NCBI RefSeq assembly: GCF_037076455.1
Contig: NZ_AP028679.1
Coordinates: 2,433,501-2,497,500, forward strand
Length of the DNA: 64,000 nt
Source of the DNA: Desulfoferula mesophila
Lineage (GTDB): Bacteria > Desulfobacterota > Desulfarculia > Desulfarculales > Desulfarculaceae
Direction of reading: 5' to 3'
The notes below the pieces were generated by a model. It was not told the DNA's origin. It ran no database searches and saw only the letters and a program-made list of their open reading frames with translations. Shown one piece after another: positions 553 to 17,302 of the stretch. The position numbers and the translations under genes are program-made. Position 1 is the first letter of the stretch. Each line of letters begins with the position of its first letter.

Positions 553-1035
553 CTTTCGCGTCCTTTATGGGTCTGCTCGTGTGCTCAATTAGTGGCAGTA
601 ACTTTAGTTCTCAAGATTTTTTTGTCGCATAAAAAGACATATAGCAAAGTACTCTTGGCTGCCATTCTCATTATCTAACTTTCGCATTGCGAAACAGAAT
701 GTACATGGCCATCCCTACACCCAGTTGTGTGCTACGGTCTCTGCTAAGGATGGCGAAGGGATTGACCTGGCCTGAGGTGCTACCCGTTTCGGGTCCAGGT
801 GAGATGAGAGATTCCGAGGCTTTGAGGTGCTACCCGTTTCGGGTCCAGGTGAGATGAGAGATTCCCAGGTTTGCTTCTTTGGAGATGGAGGCCTGGGGGA
901 GGCCATGCAGGGGGCCGCACAACAATAGAATTACGAGCAAGTGGTGAGCGCTGCAGGGGTACACTGGCATTTTATGATTTAACTTATTGTTATAATTTAT
1001 AAATATGTTGAAGCGATTGATATGGGAGGATCATT
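553..1035. other. Intergenic stretch without a convincing gene
   Basis: AT-rich up to about 690, then a short GC-rich part carrying the tandem repeat at 773-865. The open frames here are short and contain the repeat itself, so I do not call them genes. The divergent arrangement means that promoters for the iron-sulfur gene (leftward) and possibly the transposase (rightward) should lie here. No clear -10/-35 pair stands out. Confidence 0.6.
773..865. repeat. Two tandem 43-bp direct repeats with hairpin core
   Basis: An identical 43-bp sequence occurs at 773-815 and 823-865, giving a 50-bp period with a 7-bp spacer. Each copy carries ACCCG-TTT-CGGGT, a short perfect hairpin. The copies are identical, so the duplication is recent or maintained. 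It lies about 170 bp upstream of the decayed IS5-type transposase. Whether it is a protein-binding site, an RNA hairpin or the footprint of a past insertion is not visible. Confidence 0.8.
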
Positions 1036-2078: not shown

Positions 2079-2205
2079 GGAATGGTGCGCCTCAGGAGCG
2101 GCATCTACCCCAGAATGACCCCGGGCAAGTGGCAGTAAGGGCTATCCCAGATCAAAAACGGGGCCTAAAAAAGAGCGAAAATCTTTGATTGGCACGGCGG
2201 AGAGG

Positions 2206-2436
2206 TCAAAAATCAATGCCGGGAATTACGCAGCAGCCTCCAGTCTTACGGTCCCAGCCGTCATATTCTTCATAATTCTTGACCTGGAAGTAGCCGAAGC
2301 CACGTATCTCGACCCGATCTCCCTGGGCAAGAGCCTGCTCGATGGACTTGAAAATGGTGTTCACCGCACTTTCGGCGTTTTTGAGAGTGAGGTCTTCTTT
2401 CTCGGCAAGCATTCTGATCAGGTCGGATTTGTTCAT
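2206..2436 (-). CDS. Truncated HU/IHF-type DNA-binding protein
   Basis: The first ~50 residues are a clear IHF-beta/HU match: MNKSDLIRMLAEKEDL, a dimerisation helix, and GDRVEIRGFGYFQVK. After KTG the similarity ends and the protein stops at 76 residues, against about 90-95 in the family. The RNPxTG tip of the DNA-intercalating arm reads WDRKTG, so the intercalating Pro is absent. The final strand and helix (normally ending GKELKERV) are missing. A good AAGGGG ribosome site precedes the ATG. The broken IS5-type element ends within about 130 bp of its 3' end, so an insertion or deletion there is a likely cause. A full family member would bend DNA; this one probably dimerises but may bind DNA poorly. 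Confidence 0.75.
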   Translation of the reverse strand: MNKSDLIRMLAEKEDLTLKNAESAVNTIFKSIEQALAQGDRVEIRGFGYFQVKNYEEYDGWDRKTGGCCVIPGIDF

Positions 2437-2909
2437 GGATGGGTTAACCCCTTGAGGAATTTATATTTTAGCGTGATCGTAGGTGGTTGAGATATTCATG
2501 TCAAGCGGGTTGGCTTGCCTACCCAGGAACCCGGTCATTTCCCAGAGTATGAATCGCAGGATGCATTACAACTTGAGCCAGTAGCTTCTGATTTGGCCAG
2601 AGGTCTACAATTGGCGAAAACCAATACTTGCCCCATAGCCTTTGATGACAACACTTAAAGTAAGTTCCGTCCCGGGCTGACTATATAACGTCAGCGAAGA
2701 CTGTATTTAGTCCGAATGGCTAAATGGCAGTCAAGTTCGCTTTGTCGTATCCGGGCAAAAATCCTTCATATCACGCTAGTTAGCAAAATTACGTGCCGCC
2801 AGTAGGCTTGGTATATTTTTTGCGATTATCTAAGTGCATGATGAGGATCCATCTCTGCCTCTGCCTTGCTAATAATAGCAGGGACCCCTTACAGACAGGA
2901 TAGAACTAA
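2437..2909. other. Intergenic region upstream of the DUF1254 gene
   Basis: 473 bp without an open frame that looks coding on either strand. It separates divergently transcribed genes and should carry promoters for both. The composition is mixed and AT-rich near 2800-2840. No hairpin followed by a T-run, no tRNA and no repeats were seen. Confidence 0.5.
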
Positions 2910-4445
2910 ATGCGCAAGTTATTATATTTATTAATAATAACTGTTTTTGCGGCACTGCTTGCCCCAGGGCTTGCAAGTGCCCAGCAACTCACCGGCCCCC
3001 CGGCTAACCCCCAATACAAATTCTCAACACCACAAGCCCCGGGCATAGCCATACCGGACAAGGTCGAGACCCGTCTTGGCACCCTGCACTTCTTCGATGG
3101 TTTTCCAGACGAGGCGACCGCCAAGAAACTGTGGGACAACCTGGATTTCCAGCGTGCCGTTCAGGCCTATTTGCTAGCCATCCCTGCCGTGAGCCAAGCC
3201 GCCGACCGCAACGCCTGCCTTACCCTGGGGCCGGTGAACCGCACCGTGCCCATTTGGGAACAGCTAGTGGACTCGCGAACCACAGGGCTGACCTTCAATG
3301 ACAACACTGTTTACAGCTGGGCCTGGATTAACCTTAAGGATGGTCCGTTAGTTTTAGAACTCCCGCCCAAGGTGCTAGGCGCTGTTCAGGACATGTGGTT
3401 CCGCTGGGTGGTCGATCTAGGTCTCACCGGCCCCGACAAGGGCAAGGGGGGAAAGTACCTGCTGCTGCCGCCAGGCTACAAGGGCGAGATCCCTCCCGGT
3501 TACTACGTAGTAAAGTCTCCAACCTTCAATGCATGGATACCTTGGCGTAGCTTCCTCGTGAATGGTGACCCGAAGCCGGGTGTCGACATGGTCAAAAAGT
3601 ACACCAAGATTTACCCGCTCGCGGATGCCGCTAAGCCGGCGCCAAAACTCAACTACGTGGATATTTCGGGCAAGCCCTTCAACATCGTCAATCCGGCCGA
3701 TTATCGCTTCTGGGAGTTACTCAACCAGGTGGTGCAAGAGGAACCGGCAGAATCCCTCGACCAGATCCGGATGGGATATTTTGCTGCGGTCGGTATCCAG
3801 AAAGGCAAGCCTTTCGCCCCGGACGAGCGGATGAAAAAAATCCTCACCGAGGCGGCTGCCGTTGGTGATGCGACTGCGAGGACGATAGCCTTCCACCCAA
3901 GGGAGCCTGAGACCTTCTATTACAAAAACAGTGCGTGGCAGCTCCCGTTTGTCGGAGGGTACTTATTCCAATGGCGTCCCGGCGTATTGAATCTGGACGC
4001 CTATAGCTACTACTACTGGCTGGCGACCGGTGTAACCCCAGCCATGGAAGCAAAGATGATTGGCAGGGGCTCTCAGTACGCCTGGGCCGCTCGCGACTCC
4101 CAGGGCAGACCGCTTGACGGTGGTAAAAATTATAAGCTGCACCTGCCGCCCAACATCCCGGTCAAGGAATTCTGGTCGGTGATTCTCTACAGCAACCAGA
4201 CTCGCTCCATGATCCAGACCGACCATCGATTCCCGAGTCTAAGTAGTCAAAACAAAGGAACCCAGATTAATCCTGACGGTTCGGTGGATATTTACTTCGG
4301 GCCGAAGCCGCCAGCGGGGAAGAAAAGCAACTGGGTGCAGACTATCCCAGGCAAGGGCTGGAATACCCTTCTGCGCCTATACAGCCCGCTGGAGCCATGG
4401 TTCCACAAGACCTGGCGACCTGGTGAAATCGAATTGGTTAAATAA
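2910..4445 (+). CDS. Exported DUF1254/DUF1214 domain protein
   Basis: 511 residues with an N-terminal signal peptide: basic MRK, a hydrophobic run, and a likely signal peptidase I site after LASA near residue 24. The N-terminal half matches DUF1254 (an early DFQRAVQAYL stretch, then NRTVPIWEQLVDSRTTGLTFNDNTVYSW). The C-terminal part matches DUF1214 (HLPPNIPVKEFWSVILYSNQ; DGSVDIYFGPKPP; WNTLLRLYSPLEPWF). Members are periplasmic and of unknown biochemistry. An AGGA site lies about 9 nt before the ATG. The following genes on the same strand are also exported, so they may form one envelope-related unit, although the 118-bp gap could hold a separate promoter. The family call is firm; the function is unknown. 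Confidence 0.88.
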   Translation: MRKLLYLLIITVFAALLAPGLASAQQLTGPPANPQYKFSTPQAPGIAIPDKVETRLGTLHFFDGFPDEATAKKLWDNLDFQRAVQAYLLAIPAVSQAADRNACLTLGPVNRTVPIWEQLVDSRTTGLTFNDNTVYSWAWINLKDGPLVLELPPKVLGAVQDMWFRWVVDLGLTGPDKGKGGKYLLLPPGYKGEIPPGYYVVKSPTFNAWIPWRSFLVNGDPKPGVDMVKKYTKIYPLADAAKPAPKLNYVDISGKPFNIVNPADYRFWELLNQVVQEEPAESLDQIRMGYFAAVGIQKGKPFAPDERMKKILTEAAAVGDATARTIAFHPREPETFYYKNSAWQLPFVGGYLFQWRPGVLNLDAYSYYYWLATGVTPAMEAKMIGRGSQYAWAARDSQGRPLDGGKNYKLHLPPNIPVKEFWSVILYSNQTRSMIQTDHRFPSLSSQNKGTQINPDGSVDIYFGPKPPAGKKSNWVQTIPGKGWNTLLRLYSPLEPWFHKTWRPGEIELVK

Positions 4446-4563
4446 ATGGTATGAACCTGGTAATTGATCAGCGGGAGAGAGCCCAGTCAAAAGGCCCCAA
4501 CCTTCTGGATCGGTTCGCCCGCATACTTTTCAACCACAACTTCAACTGGGGATAACGGGATCA

Positions 4564-5229
4564 ATGGCAATGCAACTAATGAGGAAAAAATCCATCGGTA
4601 TTAGTCTGATGGTGCTGGGGGTTATCGCCGTGTTTGCCGTTTCGGGCTGCGCCGGAAACGGCGGTGTGTCCACCATGACCGACACCACCAAAGGCGGCAT
4701 AATCGGCGGAGCCGGCGGGGCGGCCATCGGAGCCATCATCGACCATTCCAACCCGTGGGCCGGTGCCTTGATCGGGGCCGCCGGCGGAGCGCTCACCGGT
4801 GCCGTGGTGGGGCATTTCATGGACGACCGCAAGAAGGACCTGGAAAAAGCCCTGGCGCCCCAGATCAATGCCGGAGAGGCTTCGGTGCAGATTCTGGCCG
4901 ACAACGCCCTGCTGGTGACGGAGACCGGCTCCACGGCGTTCGCCCCCGGCTCGGCGGTGGTCAATTCCGGTTTCATACCCACGCTGCAGACGATCGCCAA
5001 CGTGGTCAGCACCTACGGCAAGACGACGATCGTGGTGATCGGCCATCCCGACAGCACCGGTACCCAGGCTCAGAGGCAGACGCTGGCCAACCAGCGGGCC
5101 GAGGCGATCCGGACCATGCTGCTGGGGATGGGGGTTGCGCCCGTGCTGGTGACGGCTTCCGGCAATCCCAACAGCCGCTACATGGATGGCAGGGCCGAGG
5201 TGGTTATCCATCCCGTGGTCTCCTCCTGA
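4564..5229 (+). CDS. Glycine-zipper OmpA-family lipoprotein
   Basis: 221 residues. The N-terminus is a lipoprotein signal with the lipobox VSGC; Cys29 would be acylated. Residues ~44-85 are very rich in Gly/Ala (GGIIGGAGGAAIGAII, then ALIGAAGGALTGAVVG), a glycine-zipper segment typical of YiaD-like proteins that insert in or line the outer membrane. The C-terminal ~110 residues are OmpA-like (GHPDSTGTQAQRQTLANQRA), which in family members binds peptidoglycan. No basic charge is visible after the lipobox. Predicted to be an outer-membrane lipoprotein facing the periplasm. Shorter starts at 4570 and 4579 are possible. It lies between two other exported proteins. Confidence 0.87.
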   Translation: MAMQLMRKKSIGISLMVLGVIAVFAVSGCAGNGGVSTMTDTTKGGIIGGAGGAAIGAIIDHSNPWAGALIGAAGGALTGAVVGHFMDDRKKDLEKALAPQINAGEASVQILADNALLVTETGSTAFAPGSAVVNSGFIPTLQTIANVVSTYGKTTIVVIGHPDSTGTQAQRQTLANQRAEAIRTMLLGMGVAPVLVTASGNPNSRYMDGRAEVVIHPVVSS

Positions 5230-5470
5230 TACGCACGAACGGTTGAGCGTTTTTACAGGGCGGCATCGGCGAAATCCGACTCCCGGCTTTTTTGTAGCCG
5301 ACGAAATCGGAAATCTGATATGCGGTGCCGGATCGTTCTCTTAATGTTTGTTGTCAAGGTCCCTAGTTGTAACTTGGAGTTGATCTCTCTTGAGTTTCAT
5401 AGGTTTTGACAACGTAACATCTCATTTTAGGCAACGAAGATGGTCATCTCAAAAGCGGAGGGCTAATTCG

Positions 5471-6280
5471 ATGGAGAAGGTTATGACAAGATTGGCAAAA
5501 GCATGGATGGCCATTATGGTTGCTGTGATGTGTACCATGATGGTCGGACTTTACACGCCATCAGGGGCACGAGCTGATGCGCAAGATGCCAAAAAAATCC
5601 TTAAATCCATGTCTGATTACTTAGCGGCGCAGAAGAAAATTTCTTTTGCCTATGACAGCATTTTGGAAGTCGTCACGACAGATCACCAGAAAATCGCCCT
5701 GGCCGCTTCTGGCACGGTTACCCTGAACCGGCCGGATAAAATTATTGCTACCCGCATAGGCGGTTTTGGCAATATTGCAATGTTTTTTGACGGGAAGGTG
5801 CTAACTCTCTTAGGTAAAAACCTTAATGCCTATGCGCAGATAAAGGCACCTGGGACAATTGACCACCTCATCACGGAAATGAGGGACAAATACAACAGAC
5901 CCCTACCGGCCGCCGATCTGCTGACCTCAAATGCCTATGATTACCTGATGGTTGATGTGACCGATATCAAGGATCTCGGCAGCGGAGTAATCGGTGGAGT
6001 GGAGAGCGATCATTTCGCATTTCGCGCCAAAGAGGTCGATTGGCAAATCTGGATCGCCCGGGGGAAGAGCCCTTATCCTACTCGATTTTCCATCACCTCG
6101 AAACTCATTGTCGGTGGGCCGCAATACAGCATCCAGATCCGCGACTGGAAGGCTGGTGACGCAGTCAAGGCAACCGATTTCAGCTTTAAGAACTCCACAA
6201 ACGCCAAAAAGGTTGACCTGAAGGATATTGGTGAACTAAGCGATTTGCCAAGTAATTTTACAAAGGGAGGTGCAAAATGA
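5471..6280 (+). CDS. Exported DUF2092 domain protein
   Basis: 269 residues from the ATG at 5471. This start is preferred over 5390 because a GCGGAGGG ribosome site lies 8 nt upstream and the protein then begins with a normal signal peptide ending near ARA (residue ~36). The mature part matches DUF2092 (MSDYLAAQKKISFAYDS; TVTLNRPDKI; FFDGKVLTLLGKNLNAYAQI; DHFAFRAKEVDWQIWI). It has the look of a beta-rich LolA/LolB-like periplasmic protein. The resemblance is inferred from the pattern and the function is unknown. Its stop overlaps the next gene by 4 nt (ATGA), so the two are almost certainly translated together. Confidence 0.85.
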   Translation: MEKVMTRLAKAWMAIMVAVMCTMMVGLYTPSGARADAQDAKKILKSMSDYLAAQKKISFAYDSILEVVTTDHQKIALAASGTVTLNRPDKIIATRIGGFGNIAMFFDGKVLTLLGKNLNAYAQIKAPGTIDHLITEMRDKYNRPLPAADLLTSNAYDYLMVDVTDIKDLGSGVIGGVESDHFAFRAKEVDWQIWIARGKSPYPTRFSITSKLIVGGPQYSIQIRDWKAGDAVKATDFSFKNSTNAKKVDLKDIGELSDLPSNFTKGGAK

Positions 6281-6477
6281 GCGCATTGAAAAAAATTGTG
6301 GTTCTGCTGATAGTCGGAGTCACGTGCCTAGTCGGTTTGGAGCTTGGAGAACAACTTTCGATTCCTGGTGCTAAGACCTTTGTCTCATCCGCACAGGCAA
6401 TAGTCGGTCGTCCCCTGACGCCTGTGAGCTATGCCGGGGTAGCGCGGCGCTCAGTGAGACGGGGATTATACTACTAA
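6277..6477 (+). CDS. Small exported protein coupled to DUF2092
   Basis: 66 residues. It has an N-terminal hydrophobic export signal (KKIVVLLIVGVTCLVGL) and probable cleavage after SAQA near residue 41. This leaves a short basic tail with VGRPLTPVSYAGVARRSVRR. I recognise this tail as recurring in small proteins next to DUF2092 genes, though I cannot name a characterised member. The start overlaps the upstream stop by 4 nt and GGGAGG sits just before it. Low-complexity Arg and Tyr at the end may contact membrane or nucleic acid; this is speculation. Confidence 0.75.
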   Translation: MSALKKIVVLLIVGVTCLVGLELGEQLSIPGAKTFVSSAQAIVGRPLTPVSYAGVARRSVRRGLYY

Positions 6478-6488
6478 GCAGTCGGGAA

Positions 6489-6713
6489 TCAGCGGGCGTC
6501 AGCAGTTTTCAAGATAGCTTGGCGCAGCGCTTCTTCGTCCAAACCCAGCACGTTAGCACAGAGCTGGAAGGTGAGTTTAGCATCGGAGCCGTTGAGCCAA
6601 GCCAGAGCTCCTTCACTGTGCTCTGGATGCAGTAGGTCTTGGGTGGCCCTTAAGATCATACGACCGGCGAGCTCTTTGATAGCTTCGGTGCTATTTGAGT
6701 GGACGGGTGGCAT
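6489..6713 (-). CDS. Small hypothetical protein
   Basis: 74 residues, convergent with the preceding gene with an 11-bp gap. The C-terminal half (EGALAWLNGSDAKLTFQLCANVLGLDEEALRQAI) follows the pattern of small proteins in which an 'ALxWL' segment precedes a 'CxxLGLDxExLR' helix. These are often found in phages and genomic islands. The pattern match is from memory and no function is known. No good ribosome site is visible, so the true start may differ. Confidence 0.5.
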   Translation of the reverse strand: MPPVHSNSTEAIKELAGRMILRATQDLLHPEHSEGALAWLNGSDAKLTFQLCANVLGLDEEALRQAILKTADAR

Positions 6714-6800
6714 GGATAAATTCTAAAGGTGAGTTGAGTTTTGGTCAATATATGGGGGGTCGATCTTCCCCGCTACTTATCTGCCCTAGTCGAGAATAGC

Positions 6801-8006
6801 GTTGACAGGTTAGGGACCTAGAGGAAGGAGTCATGGCCTTCCGGTTAAGATGGTTTTAGCAAAAGGACCACTTAGCCATAGGAGGAAGGACCATGACTCA
6901 AGCTCAGTATATCATCCACCGGAAGCTCAACATTCTGGAGTTGGGCCAGACCCTGGGCAACATTTCCGAGGCCTGCCGCTAGCTGGGGGTCAGCCGCCAG
7001 CACTATTACGACATCAAACAAGCCATTGAGGATGAAGGTCTGGAAGGGCTCTTGGAGAAGAGCCGCCGGATGCCCAGAATCGGCAATCGCGTGGCTCCCG
7101 AGATAGAGCAGAAGGTGCTTGATTACTCCTTACAGTTTCCCACCCACGGCCAGACCCGGGTGGCCAACGAGCTGAAAAAGGCGGGTATACAGATCAGTGC
7201 CGGAGGCATCCGCAGCATCTGGCAGCGCCATGATCTCACGGTCAGGTCCCAGCGCCTGAAGCGCCTGGAGAAATGGGCGGCGGAAAACACCGAGGTGCTC
7301 ACCGAGTCCCAGGTACAGGCCCTGGAGGCGGCCAAGGAGGAGAAGGAATCCTATGGTGAGGTGGAGAGCCCTCATCCCGGCTTTCTCCTGGCCCAGGATA
7401 CCTGCTACGTGGGCACCATCAAGGGCATTGGCCGCATCTACCAGCAGACGGCCATTGACACCCACAGCAATGTGGGCTTTGCCAAGGTCTATCGGGAGAA
7501 GACGGCCCTGACCGCCGCGGATCTGCTCAACGACAAGGTGCTCCCCTTTTTCGACGGCCACAGCATCAGGGTGCATCGGGTGCTCACCGACAACGGCCCG
7601 GAACTATGCGGTCGCCAGGACAGCCACCCCTATGAGCTTTTCCTGCACCTTAACGAAATCGAGCACACCCGAACTAGGGTCAGGCGTCCCCAGACCAACG
7701 GAGCGGTGGAGCGGCTCCATCAGACCATCCAGGATGAGTATTACCAGGTGGCCTTCCGGAAGAAGCTCTATCACACCATCGAAGAAATCCAGGCCGACCT
7801 GTACGCCTTTATGGAGCAGTACAACACCGAGCGCACCAACCAGGGCCGATACTGCCAGGGGCGCACCCCTTTACAGGCTTTCATGGATGGCCTGAATCTT
7901 TACCAAAGGCATGTCTATGAAGGGCTAGAAACCGACGAGGCAGCGTAGTAACCTAAACCATCTGCCGGAAGGCCAATCTGTAAACGCAATTAGTGACTAG
8001 GACAAC
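6801..8006 (+). mobile_element. IS481-family insertion sequence
   Basis: About 1.2 kb around an IS481-type transposase. Left (around 6831-6858, TGGCCTTCCGG..GATGGTTTT) and right (around 7953-7976, AAACCATC.GCCGGAAGGCCA) internal segments are inverted copies. The outermost ends (GTTGACAGG at 6801; GACAAC to 8006) are only partly matched, so the exact ends are uncertain by several bases. I see no convincing target duplication. Confidence 0.65.
6893..7948 (+). pseudogene. IS481-family transposase interrupted by one in-frame TAG
   Basis: ATG at 6893 follows GGAGGAAGGA. Twenty-nine codons read as an N-terminal helix-turn-helix (ELGQTLGNISEACR), then TAG at 6980-6982. The same frame continues without further damage (LGVSRQHYYDIKQ) to 7948, 351 codons in all. 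The catalytic rve domain is intact: Asp in AQDTCYVG, Asp in VLTDNGPEL, Glu in NGAVERLHQTI. The TAG sits where an Arg or Gln is expected inside the HTH. A later ATG at 7052 could give a 298-residue protein lacking the HTH. Simple decay is the default reading; amber readthrough is the alternative. Confidence 0.85.
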
Positions 8007-8266
8007 TTATCCCTTGGTTACAGGGTTTTCGCCCCTCTAAGCTTGCCGATGATCTGCTCGGCTGAATAGTGCTTCCTGGCTATCATCAACCTACATCTCT
8101 AGCTCCAAATCTTAGCCTAAAAGCTGGACCACTCTAAGGCGGGCAAGTCACTGGCACCAAAGTATTTTTTTAGAAGGGACCAAGATTAAATTTGGTGTGC
8201 GTTAGACATTAATACGATGGCATGTTATTTTTAGAAGATACACTTATAGCAACTTTGGGAAGAATC

Positions 8267-8719
8267 ATGAGGCCTACGAAGTACCTAGTGGTTTTGGTTT
8301 GTATTTTGCTGCAATCATTGTGTTTTGCAGGGAATACCTTGGCTGTTCCAAAATTTAGAGTGCTTTTGTAAGTAACCGGAGACACTAAGTATAAAGGAAA
8401 ATTTGTCAGCAGCATTGAATCCGAATTAAAATCATTGGGAAACGTAGATATCGTTGAAAACGGTTATGACTATGCCATGTTATTAACCCTCAAAGGATAT
8501 GTGTTTAAGGATTCGAAAAAACGTACAGGTTGGGCTATTAGATATGTGTTTTGCGCACTCAAAATAAGTCGTAAATGCAACCTGTTATATATAGACCGAG
8601 TGTATAGTGATGTACTATTTGCAGATGTTGGTGAACTCGAAAATGCAGCCAAAGAAATAGTTCATAAACTTGATAAGGATATATTGAAAATAATGGAAAA
8701 GAGAAAGCGAGCTTATTGA
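8267..8719 (+). pseudogene. Secreted small protein gene with in-frame TAA
   Basis: ATG at 8267 (GGGA upstream) begins a clear signal peptide (basic RPTK, hydrophobic core, ending FAGNTLA). After 34 codons a TAA at 8369-8371 interrupts the frame, which then continues uninterrupted to 8719. The combined product would be 149 residues plus the stop. The second part starts VTGDTKYKGKFVSSIESELKSLGNVDIV and resembles small periplasmic lipoprotein-like proteins, but I do not recognise the family. It is markedly AT-rich compared with the core genes, suggesting horizontal origin. One base change would restore it, so a sequencing error is possible. An internal start at 8435 would lack the export signal. 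Confidence 0.6.
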
Positions 8720-8787
8720 GTTTGAATATTTAAAAGCCCCATTCCGCACGAACACAGGAATGCGGCTATGCGATATCATTCTAACCC

Positions 8788-9141
8788 TTAATCGACAGGC
8801 ACCAGCCTCCAAGCCTTGGACTTACCCCGAGGTTTCTCCAAGGTGAACTTAGCTCCAGGTTTGGCACCCGATTTTTCACCAAAATCGCCCACGGTCAGTC
8901 GACCCTTGGCGGTGACAGAATAGGTAGTAGGCTTGGCTTTCGCCTTGCCACCAGTTGCTGCTTGCTTGATCTTGCCGGATTCAACCATGGCCATCTTTAA
9001 CTGCTGCGCGAACTCAACCGAGGTCATAGCTTTTTTCTTGTAAGCCAGCGTCTCCCGAATTTCTTGCTCTGATACGCCATCGTTGACCATCTTGATAAGT
9101 TTCTTGCGGTCTTCCTCATTCCATTTCGAGGTCCTGGCCAT
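8788..9141 (-). CDS. Small basic protein, possible DNA-binding
   Basis: 117 residues. I chose the ATG at 9141 because AGGAG lies 8 nt upstream and the product then begins MARTSKWNEEDRKKL; a longer frame begins at 9183. The N-terminal half is helical and charged with a possible helix-turn-helix (DGVSEQEIRETLAYKKKAM). The C-terminal ~45 residues (TYSVTAKGRLTVGDFGEKSGAKPGAKFTLEKP) look like a small beta-barrel reminiscent of AbrB-like 'switch' domains. Lys-rich and Ala-rich linker. It may be a regulator carried by the accessory element. The fold assignment is a guess. Confidence 0.6.
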   Translation of the reverse strand: MARTSKWNEEDRKKLIKMVNDGVSEQEIRETLAYKKKAMTSVEFAQQLKMAMVESGKIKQAATGGKAKAKPTTYSVTAKGRLTVGDFGEKSGAKPGAKFTLEKPRGKSKAWRLVPVD

Positions 9142-9604
9142 AGGTATTCTCCTGTGCATTGGGAGGGATAAAATTTCGACCAATTTGATTATTACTAGTC
9201 TTACAAGCTCACAAGTATAAATTGCAAGGATTTTTTTATAAGACGTACTGGCAGGTTAATGTGTGGCATTAAAAGCATCTGAAATGCTTCGCACGCAACA
9301 TTATTCCTTGTAATCCTTTATAGACAGGTATGTAATTCCAGTTAAATATCCACAAGTCACTAAAGTCCAGCTTCGCCACCCTTCGCCAGGTAGGGAGAGG
9401 GGAAGTATTGTTGATCAATGTTGGTTATTGATAACTTCATGAGGAATGTCCTCAAGAATACTTTCAGTGTCCACCAGGTAATGTAGGGTATGTATGGTTT
9501 TGTATATTCTTTTGTCTTATTCTTTTTCTTTATATATTTTTTGAAAAACAATAGTATAACCCTACATACCCTACATACTAACCACTGGCGAAAGGGACTG
9601 CTAG
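9142..9604. other. AT-rich intergenic region
   Basis: About 460 bp between the small basic protein gene and the primase gene. Apart from the iteron structure near 9480-9575, I see no gene. A 63-codon frame on the minus strand overlapping the iterons is made of Lys/Ile/Thr runs from the AT-rich core and is unlikely to be coding. Confidence 0.6.
9482..9575. repeat. Head-to-head iterons around an AT-rich core (candidate origin)
   Basis: A perfect 13-bp inverted repeat (TGTAGGGTATGTA at 9482-9494; its complement at 9563-9575) brackets a 68-bp, strongly AT-rich segment. Each arm contains near-tandem copies of a short unit; on the right arm CCCTACATA occurs twice in a row. It lies directly downstream of the primase-helicase gene. 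P4-type primases bind short iterons at their origins, so an origin or replication-control site is a reasonable inference. A transcriptional role is also possible. Confidence 0.6.
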
Positions 9605-11998
9605 CTATTTCAAGCCAACATCATGATAATAAATTCCATCGGTTTCCCTTTTTTTCTCAAACAGCTTAGAGAACTTCATCCCGAACTCGGTTGAGGAATC
9701 TGCCTTGATACTTTTGTCTTTACACCATTTCTGGTAAGCATTGTATGCGTCAATTGCTTTGAGCTTCGATCCTGGTGATTCAAAACAACATTTCTCAACA
9801 AACCGACCTACCACATCTTTACTGGCGAAATACCTCTGGGTGGCTTTCACTACTGCAGGACATTCAGGTAACTTTTTGTTCTTGCCGTATATCAAAGCGC
9901 CCTGCACCAACCAGGCAAGGATATGGGCGGTATCTTCTTGCAACTTGATAATTAAATCAGGATCTTTTCGGTGATCATTGGGTCCCTTTGGATCGTCTAC
10001 ATACCGCTGGTCAAAAGGCACCACCTTTATGCGCTCCCTTAGCGCCGCGTCACTTATATCCAGATCTGGAAGTCTGTTGGTGAGCATGAATATGGTGTGG
10101 GTCGGTTTGAATGTGGTTTGTGCCCCGTAGAGACTACGGGCGGTTAAAAGGTCGCCACCGGTGAGGCGCTTTACCTCGCTGGAGCTCAACTTACACTCCT
10201 TATCCGATTCCGGGCTCCATACCATTCGTTTGCTTTTTAAAGCCATCAGAGCGGGGCTGGCTGCGTCTGCGGATCTGTTGTGGACATGCTGCAGAAGCAG
10301 TTCCACGTCGATCGGACCAGCAAGATTCCCCAAGACATGCCACAGGACATTGGTGAGGGTGGTCTTACCATTACGGCCTTCAGATCCATGAAGCATGAAA
10401 AAGTTATGTTCGGTCACTCTGCCGGTTAGGGCATATCCGAGGATGACTTGGAGGTATCTCACCTGATCTTGATCACCACCACAGATATCCTGCAGGAACT
10501 TTCTAAAGCATGGGCCGTTAGCTAGGTCATTAAGATCGCCGATGCCGTAGGAGCCATTTCCCCCGGGCCAGGGTGTCGGGATGATATTCCTGATGAAATC
10601 ATCTGGCTGGGAGGGTCTGAAGACTACAGTTGTGGCTTGTCGGTCAAATTCCAAAACTCCATTGGATACCCCCAGTAGGTCAGTATTGGCATCCCACTCC
10701 TCGCCGGTGATGGCCAGGGAGTCTGCGCCGGTAGCGGCCTGATCGACCACGTTCTTCTGCCAGGGAGATTTCCCGAGATTACTGATGCGCTCTCTGAGTC
10801 TCTTGATTAAACGCTCGAGGTCCTGCGCTGCACTCTTTTCTCCAACTGATCTCTTAGCATTCGCTTCAATTTGTTTGAGTATCAGAGCCTCTTGATAGAT
10901 TTTCTCCACATCATCAAGGCGTCTTTTGTGTTCACCCTTTTTGTCTTCCATCCAATGGGACCCGGTCCACAGGAACCACTTGCCAGAGGTTCGATCCAAG
11001 CAGAGTTGACCACGCTGCTCTTCTATGAAAAGCTCGGCGTCCCCTTTTTGGCTGTGTGCCAGGTAGTGATTGATGCGCTCGTTGCTCAGGGGTGTGCGAG
11101 GGTTCCTTTTGCCAGCTTCCAGGGCGCTGTTCAGCGTGTCTGCGATTTCCTCGGAACCAAGACCAATCATCTTGGCGGTTTCAGAGAATTGCCTCCGCAC
11201 CATATCTTCATCCAGCTCACCGGAATCCAGAATACGGCCAATGTAATAAGCTCTCTTGTTTAGTTGATCGTTTCTTTCGCCCTCAGAAACTTTCGCCAGG
11301 GTTTTCAACTCATACTCCAAAAGGGCACCCGCCCCCTCGAACTTTTCGGCGCTTCTGGAAGGTTTCCCTTGGCCGGCACCTGATTTCCGAACAGGGCGTG
11401 GCTGTTTTTTGGATTTGACCTTGTCGATTATCCATTGCGGTGCCTCTGCGGGTTCCAGATCGTCGGGATGATGATTCTCATCCCAAGCGTAGACTCCACC
11501 TGAAGCATGGATAGAGGGAGGTGCCACTATTTGGCCTCGATCCCCTCGAATATCTAATCCCGGGCCAAGACGACTGGCTGAATTGCCGATATCGCTTCCC
11601 AAGGGATACTTGAACAAAATGTGCCTCCCACCACCGCCAGTATTGGAGATAACGGTCGAAGGCAGCGGACCGTGCTGCTGTTCAAGTTGGGCGAGGGCTT
11701 CATCACCGCCGTTCTTCGGGTCCACGTCCAGGACGAAGATCCCGCTTGCAGCTCCCGTCAGGATTCCTACATTGGCATCCGGCCATTGGCTCCACCACTC
11801 CTCGATCTGGTGAGGATCATCGGTGGCGACATCTGGCCAGTTTTTTTTGATAATGGGATTTTTGCCATGACTGTCGCAGTCAGGTTCACCACACGCACAT
11901 CGGCCATTTATAACTGAATGTAACGGTAACACCCTCCAGCCTAAGCGGGCATAGGTAAGTGCTGCTTCCAAGTTTTTTTGGGTATTTTTAATGGGCAT
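9605..11998 (-). CDS. P4-type phage/plasmid primase-polymerase and helicase
   Basis: 797 residues. The N-terminal ~200 residues are a bifunctional primase/polymerase domain: a metal-binding CACGEPDCDSHGKNP at 34-48, catalytic DVD at 91-93 and GGGGRHILF at 121-129. The middle (about 330-500) fits a D5_N/P4-primase linker. The C-terminal part is an SF3-like helicase with Walker A GSEGRNGKTT at 538-547, followed by LLLQH and a sensor-like MLTNRLP. Proteins with this layout start and unwind replication of phages, satellites and integrative elements. Upstream (same strand) are two small zinc-ribbon genes, probably in the same transcript. An AT-rich iteron site lies just downstream. No frameshift is seen, so it looks functional. 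Confidence 0.92.
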   Translation of the reverse strand: MPIKNTQKNLEAALTYARLGWRVLPLHSVINGRCACGEPDCDSHGKNPIIKKNWPDVATDDPHQIEEWWSQWPDANVGILTGAASGIFVLDVDPKNGGDEALAQLEQQHGPLPSTVISNTGGGGRHILFKYPLGSDIGNSASRLGPGLDIRGDRGQIVAPPSIHASGGVYAWDENHHPDDLEPAEAPQWIIDKVKSKKQPRPVRKSGAGQGKPSRSAEKFEGAGALLEYELKTLAKVSEGERNDQLNKRAYYIGRILDSGELDEDMVRRQFSETAKMIGLGSEEIADTLNSALEAGKRNPRTPLSNERINHYLAHSQKGDAELFIEEQRGQLCLDRTSGKWFLWTGSHWMEDKKGEHKRRLDDVEKIYQEALILKQIEANAKRSVGEKSAAQDLERLIKRLRERISNLGKSPWQKNVVDQAATGADSLAITGEEWDANTDLLGVSNGVLEFDRQATTVVFRPSQPDDFIRNIIPTPWPGGNGSYGIGDLNDLANGPCFRKFLQDICGGDQDQVRYLQVILGYALTGRVTEHNFFMLHGSEGRNGKTTLTNVLWHVLGNLAGPIDVELLLQHVHNRSADAASPALMALKSKRMVWSPESDKECKLSSSEVKRLTGGDLLTARSLYGAQTTFKPTHTIFMLTNRLPDLDISDAALRERIKVVPFDQRYVDDPKGPNDHRKDPDLIIKLQEDTAHILAWLVQGALIYGKNKKLPECPAVVKATQRYFASKDVVGRFVEKCCFESPGSKLKAIDAYNAYQKWCKDKSIKADSSTEFGMKFSKLFEKKRETDGIYYHDVGLK

Positions 11999-12067
11999 TA
12001 ATTTTCTCCTTTTTTTAATTAGGTGTGGGCCATACCTAGGGCAGGCCCACGCATTAAATGTTAAAAT

Positions 12068-12499
12068 TTACTCATTCATGTCTTTACCGGTCTCTACATC
12101 GATTTTAAAATCATTTTCTTCGGCAAGTTGAACCAGAACTTCTATGCACCGGAGCGCAGATTTAAGGCGTACCTCCATGTCTTTTAGGCGATAAGACCTG
12201 TGCATACGGCCATACCTAATAAATGCATCCACAAATTCCACATGAGCAGCCATAGCTTTAAAATTGGCCATATAAACCTCTATATTTTTTTGCTTGGTAA
12301 CATCCTCATCAATGTTGTTCTCGTCCAATTCCTTTAATTTCCACATTGCGGCTACCACTGGTTCAGGGTCTTCGATTTGTTCTGGGTATGAATAGCCACA
12401 CCAGGGGCACAAGAGATGAATTCCAGGGTACGGAACGGGAAGTACAGGGTAATGGCAGTGACATTCAGGACATTTAGTTGTACCTATTTCCATTTCCAT
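12068..12499 (-). CDS. Zinc-ribbon hypothetical protein
   Basis: 143 residues from the ATG at 12499, chosen because AAGGAG lies 8 nt upstream within the end of the preceding gene. A longer frame to 12535 has no such site. Cysteines at 10, 13, 31 and 34 (CPEC ... CPWC) form a zinc ribbon. The rest is a helical domain (VYMANFKAMAAHVEFVDAFIRYG). It lies between the 56-residue zinc-ribbon gene (2-bp gap) and the primase gene. It may assist the primase or regulate the element; no characterised homologue is recognised. Confidence 0.7.
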   Translation of the reverse strand: MEMEIGTTKCPECHCHYPVLPVPYPGIHLLCPWCGYSYPEQIEDPEPVVAAMWKLKELDENNIDEDVTKQKNIEVYMANFKAMAAHVEFVDAFIRYGRMHRSYRLKDMEVRLKSALRCIEVLVQLAEENDFKIDVETGKDMNE

Positions 12500-12500
12500 T

Positions 12501-12671
12501 TTAATTTTCTCCTTCTTTTTGAGTAAATGTTTCAACGCTCAGTTCATCAATCTTTGGTTGGGTATTACCGCATCTCCGGCAAATGAACCAAGTCTCTCCA
12601 CTTGGAGCTTCTATAAAATCGTTGTAGCTCCCGCATCTTTCACAAATGTTGACCAATTCAGTTTTTTTCAT
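12501..12671 (-). CDS. 56-residue zinc-ribbon protein
   Basis: A short gene with a strong TAAGGAG site before ATG at 12671. The product begins MKKTELVNICERCGSY and carries CxxC pairs at 10/13 and 31/34 (CERC ... CRRC), a compact zinc ribbon. The ribosome site of the next gene lies inside its 3' end, so translation is coupled. The Cys positions are the same as in the downstream zinc-ribbon protein, suggesting duplication. It is probably the first gene of the primase operon. Confidence 0.7.
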   Translation of the reverse strand: MKKTELVNICERCGSYNDFIEAPSGETWFICRRCGNTQPKIDELSVETFTQKEGEN

Positions 12672-12889
12672 TCCGTTCTCCTTAATTTTAAAAGTGGCAA
12701 ATATTGGTCCTCATATAGTTTGTTAAATTTTTTAGAGCTCGAACTTGCTAAAAATGACCCTTTTGTGGTATATCTCCCAGAAAATACGGCAATAAATAAT
12801 ATTAGTGCATCTAACCGACGAATTTGCTCTTTAAGACTTTTTACGCTTTATTGGAGTCTTGGAAGGAGGCCGAAAGGATTTTCTAGGCT

Positions 12890-13203
12890 ATGGCATGCCC
12901 AACTTACACCGTAAAAGAACTTACCGCTCGCGCATTGGAAATTCGCGACTTACAACGCCGATTCGATACTGTAGTAATAGCCAATATTGTTATTTTTACG
13001 GCATTACTTGCTCTTAAGAGGAGTCAGGTTCTTAATACTCGTGTGCGCCAGGTAATGGGCATTAACGGGATATTTTCTAATCCTATCGTACATATAAAGG
13101 GGGCATACCAGTACCATATTAGGCGAATGCCATTACCATTGGAATACAGGATAAGGATGCAAGAGTATCTATTTTACCTTAAAAAAAGGTATCCAAACTT
13201 TGG
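12890..13203 (+). pseudogene. Tyrosine-recombinase-like gene, 5' part (cut by IS21-type element)
   Basis: ATG at 12890 follows AAAGGA by 11 nt. The frame reads a helical segment, then LLALKRSQVLNTRV, the place where tyrosine recombinases have TGLRxxEVLxLRW, then HIRRMPLPLEYRIRMQEYL, like the 'R.IPLP...L..YL' block. The IS interrupts it after codon 104. Joining 12890-13203 to 15736-16045 gives exactly 208 codons with the frame kept (NFG|PNMHLFPN). The catalytic Arg position appears to be Lys, so even the intact protein may have been inactive or divergent. The family assignment is from pattern only. Confidence 0.6.
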
Positions 13204-13305
13204 TGTGAATGGCGGAGTAAGTGCGGGACAGTTGGCGGTCTAAAACCGTGACACTTGTTTTAGAGATATAGTCCTGTTGTTCATGCTGTCAATCATGATC
13301 TTGCC

Positions 13306-14082
13306 TTAGTTGGTTTTGGGCTTTGCCTGGGATCGTCTTTTGGCTTGGCGGAGCCGGTAGCTTTCTCCATTGGCCTCGATGATGTGGCACCTATGGGTCA
13401 GTCTGTCCAGCAGTGCACCGGTGAGTCTTTCGGAGCCGAAGACCTCCGTCCATTGCTGGAAAGGGAGATTGGTGGTGATCATGAGGCTTTGTTGTTCATA
13501 TGCCCTACCCACCACCTCGAATAGCATTTGAGCGCCTATCTTGGAGAAGGGCACATAGCCCAGTTCATCGATGACCAGCAGGTGTAGGCGCTGGAGCTGT
13601 TTCTGCAGGCGTTGCAGACGTCTTTCCTCGCGGCATTCCATGAGCTCTGTGACCAGGGCGGTGGCGCTGTAGAATTTCACCTTGCTTCCCTGGGCGCAGG
13701 CCGCAAAGGCCATGGCGCTGGCCAGGTGGGTCTTGCCGGTGCCGGAGTTTCCGATCAGGAGCACGTTTTCCTTTTTGGCGATGTACTCGCCCCTCATCAG
13801 CTCCCTGACCAGCTGCTGATTGATGGAGGGCTGTGCCTTGAAATCAAAGGTGTCCATGGTCTTGATCACCGGAAAGGCGGCTTGCTTGATGCGCCTTTCG
13901 GCTGCCCGCTTCTCGCGGTCCAGAAGCTCCCGCTCGGTCAGGCGCAGCAGGTAGGTCATGTAATCGGAGCGGTCTTGGCTGCAGACCTTGGCCATGGCCG
14001 CGTATTCCCGGAGAATGGTGGGCAGCTTCAGCTTTTTGAGGTGGTACTCCAAGAGCACGGTGGGTTTGTCCTGGTCCTTCAT
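13306..14082 (-). CDS. istB: IS21-family ATP-binding transposition helper
   Basis: 258 residues, the normal IstB length. Walker A GNSGTGKTHLA, Walker B LLVIDELGYVP, sensor region MITTNLPFQQW, and C-terminal RLTHRCHIIEANGESYR, all typical. IstB is an AAA+ ATPase related to DnaA/DnaC that selects the target and stimulates the IstA transposase. Its start overlaps the istA stop by 4 nt (ATGA), giving coupled translation. Confidence 0.96.
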   Translation of the reverse strand: MKDQDKPTVLLEYHLKKLKLPTILREYAAMAKVCSQDRSDYMTYLLRLTERELLDREKRAAERRIKQAAFPVIKTMDTFDFKAQPSINQQLVRELMRGEYIAKKENVLLIGNSGTGKTHLASAMAFAACAQGSKVKFYSATALVTELMECREERRLQRLQKQLQRLHLLVIDELGYVPFSKIGAQMLFEVVGRAYEQQSLMITTNLPFQQWTEVFGSERLTGALLDRLTHRCHIIEANGESYRLRQAKRRSQAKPKTN

Positions 14083-15641
14083 GACAGCGCCCCTCCCTGC
14101 GCGAGGAGGGAGTCATAGACTGTGATATCGGGCCCGGCCACGCTCACTCGGCCCAGGTGCTCACGACCGTCCAGCAGGAAGGTGGCCGCGGGCCCTGATG
14201 ATGGCGGCTCCAGCAGGTGGACAATGGCCTCCGGGGCATAGGCTCCCGCGTACAATGCCTGCTCCACCGCCCGCTTCAGTCTGGCCATGGAGTGGTCCTC
14301 CAGCAAACGTAGGACCTTTATGTATTTACGGGTGCCCTGGCCAGGCATGTCTTCCCCGGCCACCAGCCGCCGCCTCAAGACCTCAAAGCACTCAGACAGA
14401 TCTAGGTCAGCCAGGGGGCGGGCGTGGTCCAGGGAGCCAGGCTTGCGCTCCAGCAAGGGCAGATAATGCCGGTAGTCGAAAAACACCCCTTCCTTGCCCC
14501 AGGATCGGGAGTGGCGGGCCACCACCACGTCATGGTGGCAGAGCACCACCCGATCCACATAGCCCTTGGCCACAATTTCATGGTGGGCACAAGCCACCGG
14601 CACCGAGTAGTCATTGTCGTCGAAGCGGACCAGGGACAATGAATTGGCCCGGGTAGGCTGTTTGCGGCAGGCATCGAAGCGGGAGGGAGGCAGGGGGACA
14701 AAGGCTGTCTGGTCTTCCTGCAAAACCTCGGCCTTGCTACCGCCCTTGCCACGCAAACGGCGCTTCATGTCGTCGCGGCACTGCCTTAAAAGCATGGCAT
14801 TGAGCTCGGCCAGGTCCTTCACCTGGGGCACTGGCACCAAAAAATTCTGCCGGGCGTACTTGACCACCCCTTCCACCACGCCCTTCTCGTTTGGACGCCG
14901 CACCCGACAAAAATGCTCCCGAAAAAGGTAATGGCTCTGCAGCTTGAGAAAACCATCGGTCAGCTTGCGCTCATGAGGCCCTATGATCTTGGAAACCAGG
15001 ACCTTGCTATTGTCGTAACTGATCCGGTGGGGCACCCCACCGAAAAACTCGAACGCCCTGGCATGCCCTTCCCAGTAGCTCTCGCTGCACTCCTTGTCGA
15101 AGGCCGCCACGAAAAAGGCATCGGAGTACGGCAAGGCCATGATAAAAAGCGCTATCTTGCGAAGCTCCCCGGAAACCTTGGCCAGGGCATAGCCAAAGTC
15201 CACCTGCGCCTCGCCGGGACGATGGACCAGGGGCATGTACACCTCCTGGCTCACGCGCTTGATTGCGCGCACCGCCTCCTTTACCTGGGTGTACTTGCCC
15301 TGATAACCCGCCTCCTTGATGCGGTGATATATGCGCGTGGCCGTGTGCCTTTGCTTCTTGGGAACCTTTTTGTCCTCTTTTATGATCCGGGCGATCAACT
15401 CAAGGTAGGGGCCAAGCTTGGGCTTGGCTCGGGGGGTGCTGAGCCGGTATCCGGGAGGCTCGGGAAAATTCTGAATCTTTTGCAGGGTATCCCAATGGAT
15501 GCCCTCTCTACGCATTAACTCGCGCTTGCTCGCCTGGCCATCGCGCAACTCAAGTCTGATCCGGGCCCATTGATCCATGTCCGTGTACACCCCTTCCGCT
15601 CCTCCAGAGAGTCCTGGCCTGGAAGCCACCATGGCCTCCAT
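14079..15641 (-). CDS. istA: IS21-family transposase
   Basis: Up to 520 residues. An N-terminal HTH (ELMRREGIHWDTLQKI) is followed by the rve integrase domain, with Asp in GEAQVDFG, Asp in RISYDNSK and Glu in NEKGVVEG, matching the DDE triad. A C-terminal beta-rich domain (NDYSVPVACAH) completes the IstA layout. The longest frame starts at 15641, but a GTG near 15584 after GGAAGGGG or an ATG at 15578 (MDQWARIRL) fits family starts better. No damage is seen. Confidence 0.94.
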   Translation of the reverse strand: MEAMVASRPGLSGGAEGVYTDMDQWARIRLELRDGQASKRELMRREGIHWDTLQKIQNFPEPPGYRLSTPRAKPKLGPYLELIARIIKEDKKVPKKQRHTATRIYHRIKEAGYQGKYTQVKEAVRAIKRVSQEVYMPLVHRPGEAQVDFGYALAKVSGELRKIALFIMALPYSDAFFVAAFDKECSESYWEGHARAFEFFGGVPHRISYDNSKVLVSKIIGPHERKLTDGFLKLQSHYLFREHFCRVRRPNEKGVVEGVVKYARQNFLVPVPQVKDLAELNAMLLRQCRDDMKRRLRGKGGSKAEVLQEDQTAFVPLPPSRFDACRKQPTRANSLSLVRFDDNDYSVPVACAHHEIVAKGYVDRVVLCHHDVVVARHSRSWGKEGVFFDYRHYLPLLERKPGSLDHARPLADLDLSECFEVLRRRLVAGEDMPGQGTRKYIKVLRLLEDHSMARLKRAVEQALYAGAYAPEAIVHLLEPPSSGPAATFLLDGREHLGRVSVAGPDITVYDSLLAQGGALS

Positions 15642-15735
15642 CGCACCAAAACACCTGAAGAAAACTGAATCGGTGTGTCACGGTTTTCAACCGCCACTAA
15701 AATCGTCTCGCTTTTGGACCGCCATTTACATTTGG

Positions 15736-16045
15736 TCCTAATATGCATTTGTTCCCGAACAAAAAAGGTAAAAAGTATGATACAGGCAAATTAACTAGAC
15801 ACATGAAAGCAGTTGTTGGTCTAACCCTGGGGGACATTAAAAATAGTGGCATTTGTTATTATTATCAATTTCTTATTAATAATAGATATCTTGAGTGGGA
15901 CGCAACTAGTATCACCGCTGCCTTCAGCGGTGATCAAGAACGGAAGATAAAAGACCACATTCGAGGTTGTGGCCAACCACCAGGAGATGGATGCAGGGTA
16001 CGTAGGGCATCGATGGTCAATTACACGGGGCCCCCGTCTGTCTGA
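15736..16045 (+). pseudogene. Tyrosine-recombinase-like gene, 3' part
   Basis: Continuation of the gene cut at 13203. It reads HLFPNKKGKKYDTGKLTRHMK, matching the 'LFPxxxG...lxrxlk' block before the second catalytic box of tyrosine recombinases. Then comes LTLGDIKNSGICYYYQFLINN, where 'LHDLRRSGxxxY' is expected. The canonical HxxR and terminal Tyr are not clearly present. A stand-alone start at 15743 has no ribosome site, so the fragment is unlikely to be expressed. Confidence 0.55.
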
Positions 16046-16092
16046 CACCTCGCTCTAGGCAGTAAAACACAAAAAATGGGGCAGGCCGATGT

Positions 16093-16159
16093 GGTGTAAG
16101 GGTGTAAGACGATAAATAGTACAAAAAAATTAGCTAGTCAAAATCTTACACCATTACAC
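16093..16159. repeat. Second iteron pair around an AT-rich core
   Basis: GGTGTAAG occurs twice in perfect tandem at 16093-16108. The 16-bp sequence 16094-16109 is repeated inverted with one mismatch at 16144-16159, with a 34-bp AT-rich spacer between. The design is the same as the site at 9482-9575, although the unit sequence differs. A protein-binding site for replication or recombination is inferred. Confidence 0.6.
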
Positions 16160-16336
16160 GCATTCAGTTCGGGGTTCTGTTGTACAGGGGCTCAGCGGGG
16201 ATCCTTTTCCCGCCGGGTTCGCTTGAAAGGGACTACCTCACCCGGCTCCTCGAAGAACGCCTGATCAAGGCTCGCCATGGGACTCCCACTGAAGCATTAA
16301 AAACCATGACAAAAAGCACTAAACTATGATATAGTA

Positions 16337-16368
16337 TTTGTGTGAAAGGTACAAGGTTTTCACACAAA
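16337..16368. promoter_or_regulatory. 11-bp perfect inverted repeat (operator-like)
   Basis: TTTGTGTGAAA and its exact complement are separated by 10 bp, so the arms are centred two helical turns apart. This suits a dimeric regulator. An AT-rich TATGATATAGTAT stretch lies immediately upstream and could be a promoter -10 region. No T-run follows, so it is not a usual terminator. No gene starts nearby on the plus strand. Confidence 0.45.
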
Positions 16369-16445
16369 CCTAGGATTCGATAGATTGGACATAGGTTAAT
16401 TTAGATAGCAGTATCAGGTATTTGCAGATCAGTGTCGAGTGTAGC

Positions 16446-16468
16446 TCCGACTCTCCCCTTCGGCACCA
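16446..16468 (+). other. tRNA-Leu 3'-end remnant, probable attachment site
   Basis: The 23 bp read as a T-loop (TCCGACT), the T-stem 3' strand (CTCCC), the acceptor 3' strand (CTTCGGC), the discriminator A and CCA. The acceptor would pair with GCCGAAG, a 5' end typical of bacterial tRNA-Leu. The 5' half of a tRNA is not present upstream. Elements that integrate in tRNA 3' ends leave exactly such a fragment at one border. Confidence 0.6.
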
Positions 16469-16478
16469 ACAGCAAGAT

Positions 16479-16517
16479 CAAGGGGCGGGCTCATAAGAGC
16501 CGGCCCCTTTGATTTTT
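16479..16517 (+). terminator. Strong terminator after the tRNA remnant
   Basis: Long GC-rich hairpin (CAAGGGGCGGGCTC / GAGCCGGCCCCTTTG, one mismatch and one bulge) with an ATAA loop, followed by ATTTTT. It reads rightward and would end transcription of a tRNA located here. It is therefore probably the native terminator of the interrupted tRNA-Leu gene. Confidence 0.75.
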
Positions 16518-16541
16518 AGCGTCACTAACGCACATAAAACA

Positions 16542-16568
16542 CCAACCCCGGCCCGGGGTTGGCGTTTT
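16542..16568. terminator. Hairpin terminator at the DUF1847 gene end
   Basis: CCAACCCCGG/CCGGGGTTGG stem at 16542-16562, followed by CGTTTT on the plus strand. On the minus strand it is followed by TGTTTTA. It can end the leftward DUF1847 transcript and also insulate it from rightward reading. Confidence 0.65.
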
Positions 16569-16597
16569 GTTTGTGGGGCGCGTGGGGGTTGGCCGCC

Positions 16598-17302
16598 CTA
16601 TTCCGGCTCCTCGCCCTGCTTGAGCTTGGCGTAATAGACGTCGGCCAGGTAGACCGCGGCCAGGGGGTTGTGCCCGGTCACCCGGTCCTTGACCGCCAGC
16701 ACCGTGGTGGGGGCCTTGGCGTGGGCGAAGAACAGCGAGTCGTGGCCCACGCACAGGCCCAGCAGCACGTTCAGCTCGGTGCCCGCCCGATTCATCAGCT
16801 CGGCCTGGAACACCGGGTTGCACACCGATTCGAAGCCGCCCTGGCGTATCTTGTCCTCGTCGCCCAGGCCCAGCATCTCCTTGGGCGTGGCCCCTGCCTT
16901 GCACAAGGCTGAAACCACCTCCAGCCCATGCTCCTGGAATATCTCCTCCACCTTGGCCGCCTCCTTGACCAGGCCCAGGCAAAAGGCCAGCCCCACCTTG
17001 CGATAGCCCATGCGCTGAGCGAACTCCCATATCTCTTGGATGCGGGTCTTGGAGGGCTGCAGCACATAGGGCCGCTGGTGGCGGTTGGCGTAGCAGGACG
17101 CCTCTTGCAAGGAGGCCTGGCGGGCGAACTCCTTGAGCTTGGGATCGTCGTACTTGGCGTTGGCCGCCTGCAGAGCCTCGGCCTGCTCCTGGGTGGGACA
17201 GGCCGGCCCGCCAACCCCGCCGGGGGTAACACAGGCCCGTTTGGCGGTGGCCACGTGACAGGAAGCGCAGGCCGGTTGTGAGGTTTTTTTATGGTTATCC
17301 AT
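16598..17302 (-). CDS. DUF1847 cysteine-rich protein
   Basis: 234 residues. Cysteines 12, 15, 24 and 35 at the N-terminus look like a metal site. The body carries the family blocks FCLGLVKEAAKVEEIF, SALCKAGATPKE, SVCNPVFQAELMNRAGTELN, LCVGHDSLFFAHAKAP and VKDRVTGHNPLAAVY. DUF1847 proteins occur mainly in anaerobes; a metal-binding or redox role is suspected, and none is proven to my knowledge. It has no signal peptide, so it is probably cytoplasmic. It is transcribed alone, divergently from prpE, and closed by a terminator. Confidence 0.9.
   Translation of the reverse strand: MDNHKKTSQPACASCHVATAKRACVTPGGVGGPACPTQEQAEALQAANAKYDDPKLKEFARQASLQEASCYANRHQRPYVLQPSKTRIQEIWEFAQRMGYRKVGLAFCLGLVKEAAKVEEIFQEHGLEVVSALCKAGATPKEMLGLGDEDKIRQGGFESVCNPVFQAELMNRAGTELNVLLGLCVGHDSLFFAHAKAPTTVLAVKDRVTGHNPLAAVYLADVYYAKLKQGEEPE

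Follow-up and report, generated by a model that had tools for sequence, protein, structure and literature searches.

A displaced tRNA-Leu(CAG) 3' end as the probable right attachment site of a 54.5-kb island with a catabolic cluster

The short tRNA remnant at positions 16452-16469 (plus strand) is very probably the attR of a 54.5-kb island that entered a tRNA-Leu(CAG) gene at its 3' end through recombinase-mediated integration. The window, meaning the whole 64-kb stretch of DNA that was analysed, corresponds to C1:2433501-2497500 of a single-contig genome of 4,479,191 bp (4.48 Mb). In this genome the core of the site exists in two copies, one of which closes an intact tRNA gene with an adjacent integrase gene pointing inward. 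In relatives the same site is found free of the island, and in one of them it is occupied by a second, unrelated element.

The first-pass annotation had assigned the 23 bp TCCGACTCTCCCCTTCGGCACCA at 16446-16468 to the 3' end of a tRNA-Leu, and had predicted an intact tRNA-Leu to the left of the window and a second copy of the core at the other border. By searching the whole genome with this pattern and up to two mismatches, two places were found, both on the plus strand, namely window 16446-16468 and C1:2395423-2395445; the reversed pattern, used as a control at the same two mismatches, gave 0 matches. The copy outside the window has 2 mismatches to TCCGACTCTCCCCTTCGGCACCA and lies at the 3' terminus of an intact tRNA-Leu gene, which ARAGORN called as tRNA-Leu(CAG) at L006:359-445; the same program called no tRNA within the 64-kb window. 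The search to the left of position 1 thus yielded one intact tRNA-Leu(CAG) with the matching 3' end, 54.5 kb away. Uninterrupted identity between the two places covers 18 bp, TCTCCCCTTCGGCACCAA, at C1:2395429-2395446 and C1:2449952-2449969, with flanks that differ on both sides, and comprises the last 17 bases of tRNA-Leu(CAG) and the next base, that is, one base beyond the CCA. This 18-bp word has two exact copies in the 4.48-Mb genome and none elsewhere, both on the plus strand and 54,523 bp apart, with the intact tRNA on the left, and the one at C1:2395429-2395446 is the copy that had been predicted for the other border.

The six bases described as T-loop (16446-16451) belong to the island side, where the match to the intact tRNA is only partial, so the true common core is shorter than 23 bp: the tRNA-Leu tail was recognised correctly, and the length of the exact repeat has to be reduced to the 18 bp at 16452-16469. 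As for the exact base of the cut, it is one that we infer. The incomplete T-loop match would also suit a chance resemblance to a tRNA 3' end, with the change of composition at this point coming from IS elements only. The probability of such a coincidence is very small, as the chance expectation of a given 18-mer in this genome is 1.3e-4 and the position of the integrase, the relatives and the second occupant are all concordant. It is refuted by the two-site search, the intact tRNA, the relatives and the second occupant taken together.

With a remnant that is very probably attR, the island spans C1:2395429-2449969 and extends 38.1 kb past the left edge of the window. Because the core is present in two copies and the integrase points inward, window 1-16451 was identified as the right third of the island (16.45 kb of 54.5 kb), an assignment to which composition and relatives also contribute. 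The earlier view that the first 16.4 kb belong to something larger is therefore sustained by the 54.5 kb between the core repeats and the integrase at the far end. The GC content is 56.9% in the island, against 68.6% in the left flank and 63.8% in the right flank, which agrees with the shift of composition noted at the border.

The tyrosine recombinase gene (C1:2395521-2397308, 595 aa) starts 75 bp past the intact tRNA and is directed into the island. Its product carries the Pfam domains PF00589 (53.4 bits, cut-off 27.1) and DUF6538 (57.4 bits, cut-off 27). A single-sequence scan of the genome-collection contigs with this integrase gave no matches. The integrase was aligned with four relatives from other genomes, and by using this alignment to scan the genome collection 115 relatives were found, the best 80 of which were kept. 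Among these best 80 of 115, ARAGORN placed a tRNA within 1.5 kb upstream of the integrase relative at 55 of 80 loci, on the same strand in 55 of 55 cases, and within 1.5 kb downstream at 0 of 80; a contig end falls within 1.5 kb at 7 of the 25 loci that have no tRNA. The target tRNAs at the 55 loci were Ala (16), Ser (15), Leu (7) and nine further types (17 combined). Since the relatives have a same-strand tRNA just upstream, this integrase family acts at tRNA 3' ends, in keeping with integration at the tRNA-Leu. Viral contigs contained 51 integrase relatives, and protein searches of phage and plasmid records returned distant relatives only, all below 60% identity. Close relatives are absent from all 7 same-genus genomes, with one weak match (E = 4.5e-4) in G004, and a literature search for DUF6538 together with integrase found nothing.

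The DUF6538-type tyrosine recombinase would thus be the agent, and most likely it joined an attP carrying a copy of the tRNA 3' end to the chromosomal tRNA. At the left end (attL), the end of the island would have restored the tRNA-Leu, and at the right end (attR) the original tRNA 3' end would have been displaced rightward together with its terminator. The longest word common to the two island ends is the 14-nt TTTTCACACAAACC, located at 16357-16370 on the plus strand, about 80 bp from the right core, and repeated directly at L006:506-519, about 60 bp from the left one. This length was reached in 0 of 1000 mononucleotide shuffles, and the word is a candidate arm-type binding site of the integrase.

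Both tRNA-Leu(CAG) and the native right-flank gene, which encodes a DUF1847 protein (16598-17302, minus strand; Pfam match PF08901) and lies near tRNA-Leu(CAG) in relatives, are present in 7 of 7 same-genus genomes. In four of these (G001, G004, G005 and G006) they share a contig at a distance of 1.8-2.8 kb, with a conserved left flank as well; the intervals are too short for the present island and were consequently scored as free of it. In G007 the two are separated by 12.2 kb, and in G002 and G003 they are found on different contigs, so that the site call covers 5 of the 7 genomes. The check for an empty site that had been proposed at first pass therefore gave four island-free genomes, one with another element and two with contig breaks. 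As the seven genomes are different species, not strains, the empty site is deduced across species.

The occupant of the tRNA-Leu(CAG) site in G007 is a different, phage-like element of about 10.4 kb (L062:2226-12655). It is bounded by two copies of the same core, at L062:2209 and 12638, with a native terminator after the right copy, and encodes an integrase, a replication-initiation-like protein, an HNH endonuclease, a large terminase, a portal, a head protease and a major head protein. A scan of 10 of its proteins revealed no tail gene. The element resembles a capsid-forming satellite.

Two terminators follow the attR core on the plus strand. Terminator 1 occupies 16472-16520, and the segment 16470-16528 folds at -30.9 kcal/mol (z = -6.9); terminator 2 spans 16530-16567 with its leader GCACATAAA. 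A simple pattern scan listed terminator 2 at 16542-16562 and missed terminator 1, probably because the stem of the latter has a mismatch. The strong rightward terminator reported after the tRNA remnant is accordingly present, with a second one behind it, and its description as native-looking is a fair reading. In the 60 relatives searched, the terminator 1 type was found directly behind tRNA-Leu(CAG) in G010, G016 and G019, which belong to other genera of the family (matches of 78-86%), and behind a tRNA-Glu in G009, but it is missing at four same-genus sites (G004, G005, G006 and the right border of G007). G001 and another locus of the present genome also have matches, with no adjacent tRNA. 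Terminator 2 is similar to what stands immediately behind the tRNA in G004, G005 and G006, and in G007 to what stands behind the right core.

The 60 bp that separate terminator 2 from the core might be a scar, left by an older element or by recombination with another genus, rather than the sequence that this tRNA had originally, since at all four of these same-genus sites the tRNA end is followed at once by the terminator-2 type and terminator 1 is absent. We regard this as a tentative possibility, somewhat on the improbable side. The segment 16470-16529, which has no counterpart in G004, G005, G006 and G007, had at first been adopted as the scar of an earlier element, and was downgraded because three genomes from other genera carry this terminator type directly behind their tRNA-Leu(CAG); given those genomes, ancestral tandem terminators with a later loss of terminator 1 in the other species are about as simple. 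A decayed third core at 16511-16529 was considered and dropped (8 of 19 bases match, p = 0.08). Its last 10 bases, a subset picked after looking, match the core at 7 positions (p = 0.004), and the third core is not claimed because other nearby registers score as well or better.

Beside the border, at window 16568-16597, the genome lacks about 1.8 kb of the native flank still present in same-genus genomes. In G007 a TPR-type gene stands between the terminator and DUF1847, and in G001, G004, G005 and G006 a gene ends just before DUF1847 where the TPR-type gene stands in G007; in the present genome, the TPR-type protein has weak matches elsewhere only (best E = 1.1e-6, 32% identity). The right border that had been proposed for an integrated element is thus upheld, but the native flank behind it is not intact. 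This loss, which includes the TPR-type gene, and the two terminators where relatives have one count against the attR reading.

The island itself is an IS-riddled mosaic that carries a catabolic cluster of 32 kb. From the left it starts with the integrase, a transposase pair with 100% identical copies in L085 and L086, and a transposase fragment, after which the catabolic cluster begins. To the right of this cargo, the window holds DUF1254/DUF1214, OmpA-like and DUF2092 proteins, transposases, a primase-helicase module and an IS21 element. IS elements have entered the island, and the transposase genes of the window include a DDE transposase fragment (1192-1959, plus strand; PF05598 and PF01609) and an rve-family transposase (7052-7948, plus strand; PF13683) with an 81% identical copy in L066. 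The IS21 family genes lie on the minus strand: istB (13306-14082; PF01695) has copies at two other loci that are 99.6% identical in amino acids, and the istA transposase (14079-15641; PF22483) has 99-100% identical copies at L084 and L085. Also on the minus strand is the replication module of the element, formed by a primase-polymerase/D5-like helicase of 797 aa (9605-11998; PF09250 and PF08706; phrog_1156) and two small proteins of 131 aa (8788-9183) and 155 aa (12068-12535). Proteins 86% and 89% identical to the former and 78% identical to the latter are encoded beside the primase in L084 and L085. Taken as a whole (window 8788-12535), the primase-helicase module is present at three places of the genome, including L084 and L085, with primases that are 67-73% identical; in L085 an insertion with a transposase pair splits the primase.

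As the modules in L084 and L085 lie near other tyrosine recombinases, the island could have arisen from two tandem elements at the tRNA, with the integrase and catabolic cargo on the left and the primase-helicase on the right, that were fused by loss of the middle attachment site. Such a history is unlikely in our judgement: no third core is present inside the island, where the next best matches have 5 mismatches in 18 positions, and sharing of modules between elements gives the same pattern.

In the island, the catabolic cluster runs from about C1:2399432 to 2434052, and its right end reaches into the window as the N-terminal part of an Fe-S oxidoreductase subunit (1-552, minus strand; Fer4 matches). 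The cluster matches include a bile-acid-symporter-family transporter, a gamma-carbonic-anhydrase-like protein, an enolase-superfamily dehydratase, GlcD, succinate-CoA ligase alpha and beta, the alpha subunit of a 2-oxoacid:acceptor oxidoreductase, fumarase, a fused TRAP permease, two fumarate reductase/succinate dehydrogenase-like flavoproteins, a UxaA-family dehydratase, a sigma-54 activator and a DapA-family protein. At L007:8348-13165 (C1:2423348-2428165), the iron-sulfur subunit of a succinate dehydrogenase (SdhB) is fused to a Rieske domain and adjoins a cytochrome b-cytochrome c fusion and a fumarate-reductase-like flavoprotein. Among the matches listed from 297 sampled genomes of the phylum, the Rieske part was reached in the own genome, G084, G286 and G303, and a closer look adds G306 to the genomes with SdhB-Rieske. 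Flavoprotein, SdhB-Rieske, cytochrome b-c and fumarase stand together in G286 and G306, and on adjoining pieces in G084; in G303 the first three were found and the contig ends there. Nothing was found in the literature on a Rieske/succinate dehydrogenase complex in Desulfobacterota.

A collinear copy of the cargo cluster over about 32 kb, with 76-82% nucleotide identity, is present in G005:C32 (4289-36589), on a different contig from the tRNA-Leu(CAG) of that genome. The DapA-family gene is at the opposite end of the cluster in G005, in the same orientation (L257:3119-4046; G005:C32:4289-36589). This gene order would fit a circular permutation of that of the island, and movement of one gene would explain it too. 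In G005:C32 the cluster has TniB- and Mu-transposase-like genes to its left and a tRNA-SeC with low-GC DNA to its right.

Within the cargo, a segment of 1,447 bp with the UxaA-family dehydratase (L007:13259-14705) is 99.24% identical to chromosomal C1:664983-666429, whereas the neighbours are at most about 70% identical between the two copies, which suggests recent gene conversion or duplication. The only PDB match of this dehydratase is galactarate dehydratase, an assignment that was rejected because the NCBIfam score, 131.6 bits, is below the cut-off of 730.9. Upstream of the 391-aa dehydratase subunit a small protein of about 94 aa is encoded, and genes for a 2-hydroxyacid dehydrogenase and a malate/L-lactate dehydrogenase are found beside the chromosomal dehydratase copy and near the G005 copy. 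The dehydratase subunits and neighbouring dehydrogenases would tentatively correspond to SuyAB, SlcC and ComC. The ~94-aa protein and the two dehydrogenase neighbours suggest that a candidate sulfolactate sulfo-lyase (SuyAB, encoded by suyAB) is a better guess than galactarate dehydratase. On a wider reading, the island would be a vehicle for a self-contained 32-33-kb respiratory cluster for an organosulfonate, sulfolactate for instance, in which the succinate dehydrogenase/fumarate reductase flavoprotein, SdhB-Rieske and cytochrome b-c would form a hybrid membrane complex. This cluster would travel via a circular form, as the circularly permuted gene order in G005 could indicate. We consider this reading distinctly unlikely.

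Insertion beside tRNA genes is a well-known route of bacterial gene gain. In the present case, a 23-bp observation in raw sequence correctly foretold a 54.5-kb acquired island with its far end outside the window, and the tRNA-Leu(CAG) was found to be a site used by two unrelated elements within one genus. Judging from the cargo, islands of this kind may carry a large respiratory/catabolic cluster from one species, or one place in a genome, to another. Literature searches found nothing on a catabolic tRNA-Leu island in sulfate reducers, or for Desulfarculaceae together with genomic island.

P4-like satellites and other elements combine an integrase beside a tRNA gene with a primase-helicase. 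The present island is similar to P4-like satellites in its tRNA-adjacent integrase and its primase-polymerase/D5-like helicase, the only firm PHROGs matches among the 8 island proteins scanned. It differs from them in its 54.5 kb and its large catabolic cluster, and no phage-packaging genes turned up in the proteins scanned. Catabolic integrative and conjugative elements likewise carry a catabolic gene cluster on a tRNA-inserted element, as the present island does. No transfer genes were seen in the island: relaxase, type IV secretion and conjugation genes were absent among the families matched in the 39 of 50 island ORFs that were compared with at least one library (one ORF partly), a scan that a small gene could escape. 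Conjugation is therefore unsupported. The closest likeness is to the tRNA-gene islands of Islander (PMC4383910), which, in the part of that source used here, are described by a restored tRNA gene, a displaced fragment and an integrase. The present island shares with them an intact tRNA at one end, a 3' fragment displaced in the same orientation at the other and a tyrosine integrase inside, and its site is free of the island in relatives. Nothing differs in principle from the islands as that part of the source describes them (PMC4383910), the present one being a mosaic with many IS elements. The arrangement is thus already known, within the same part of the source, as a tRNA-gene island (PMC4383910), of which the present island is a further example.
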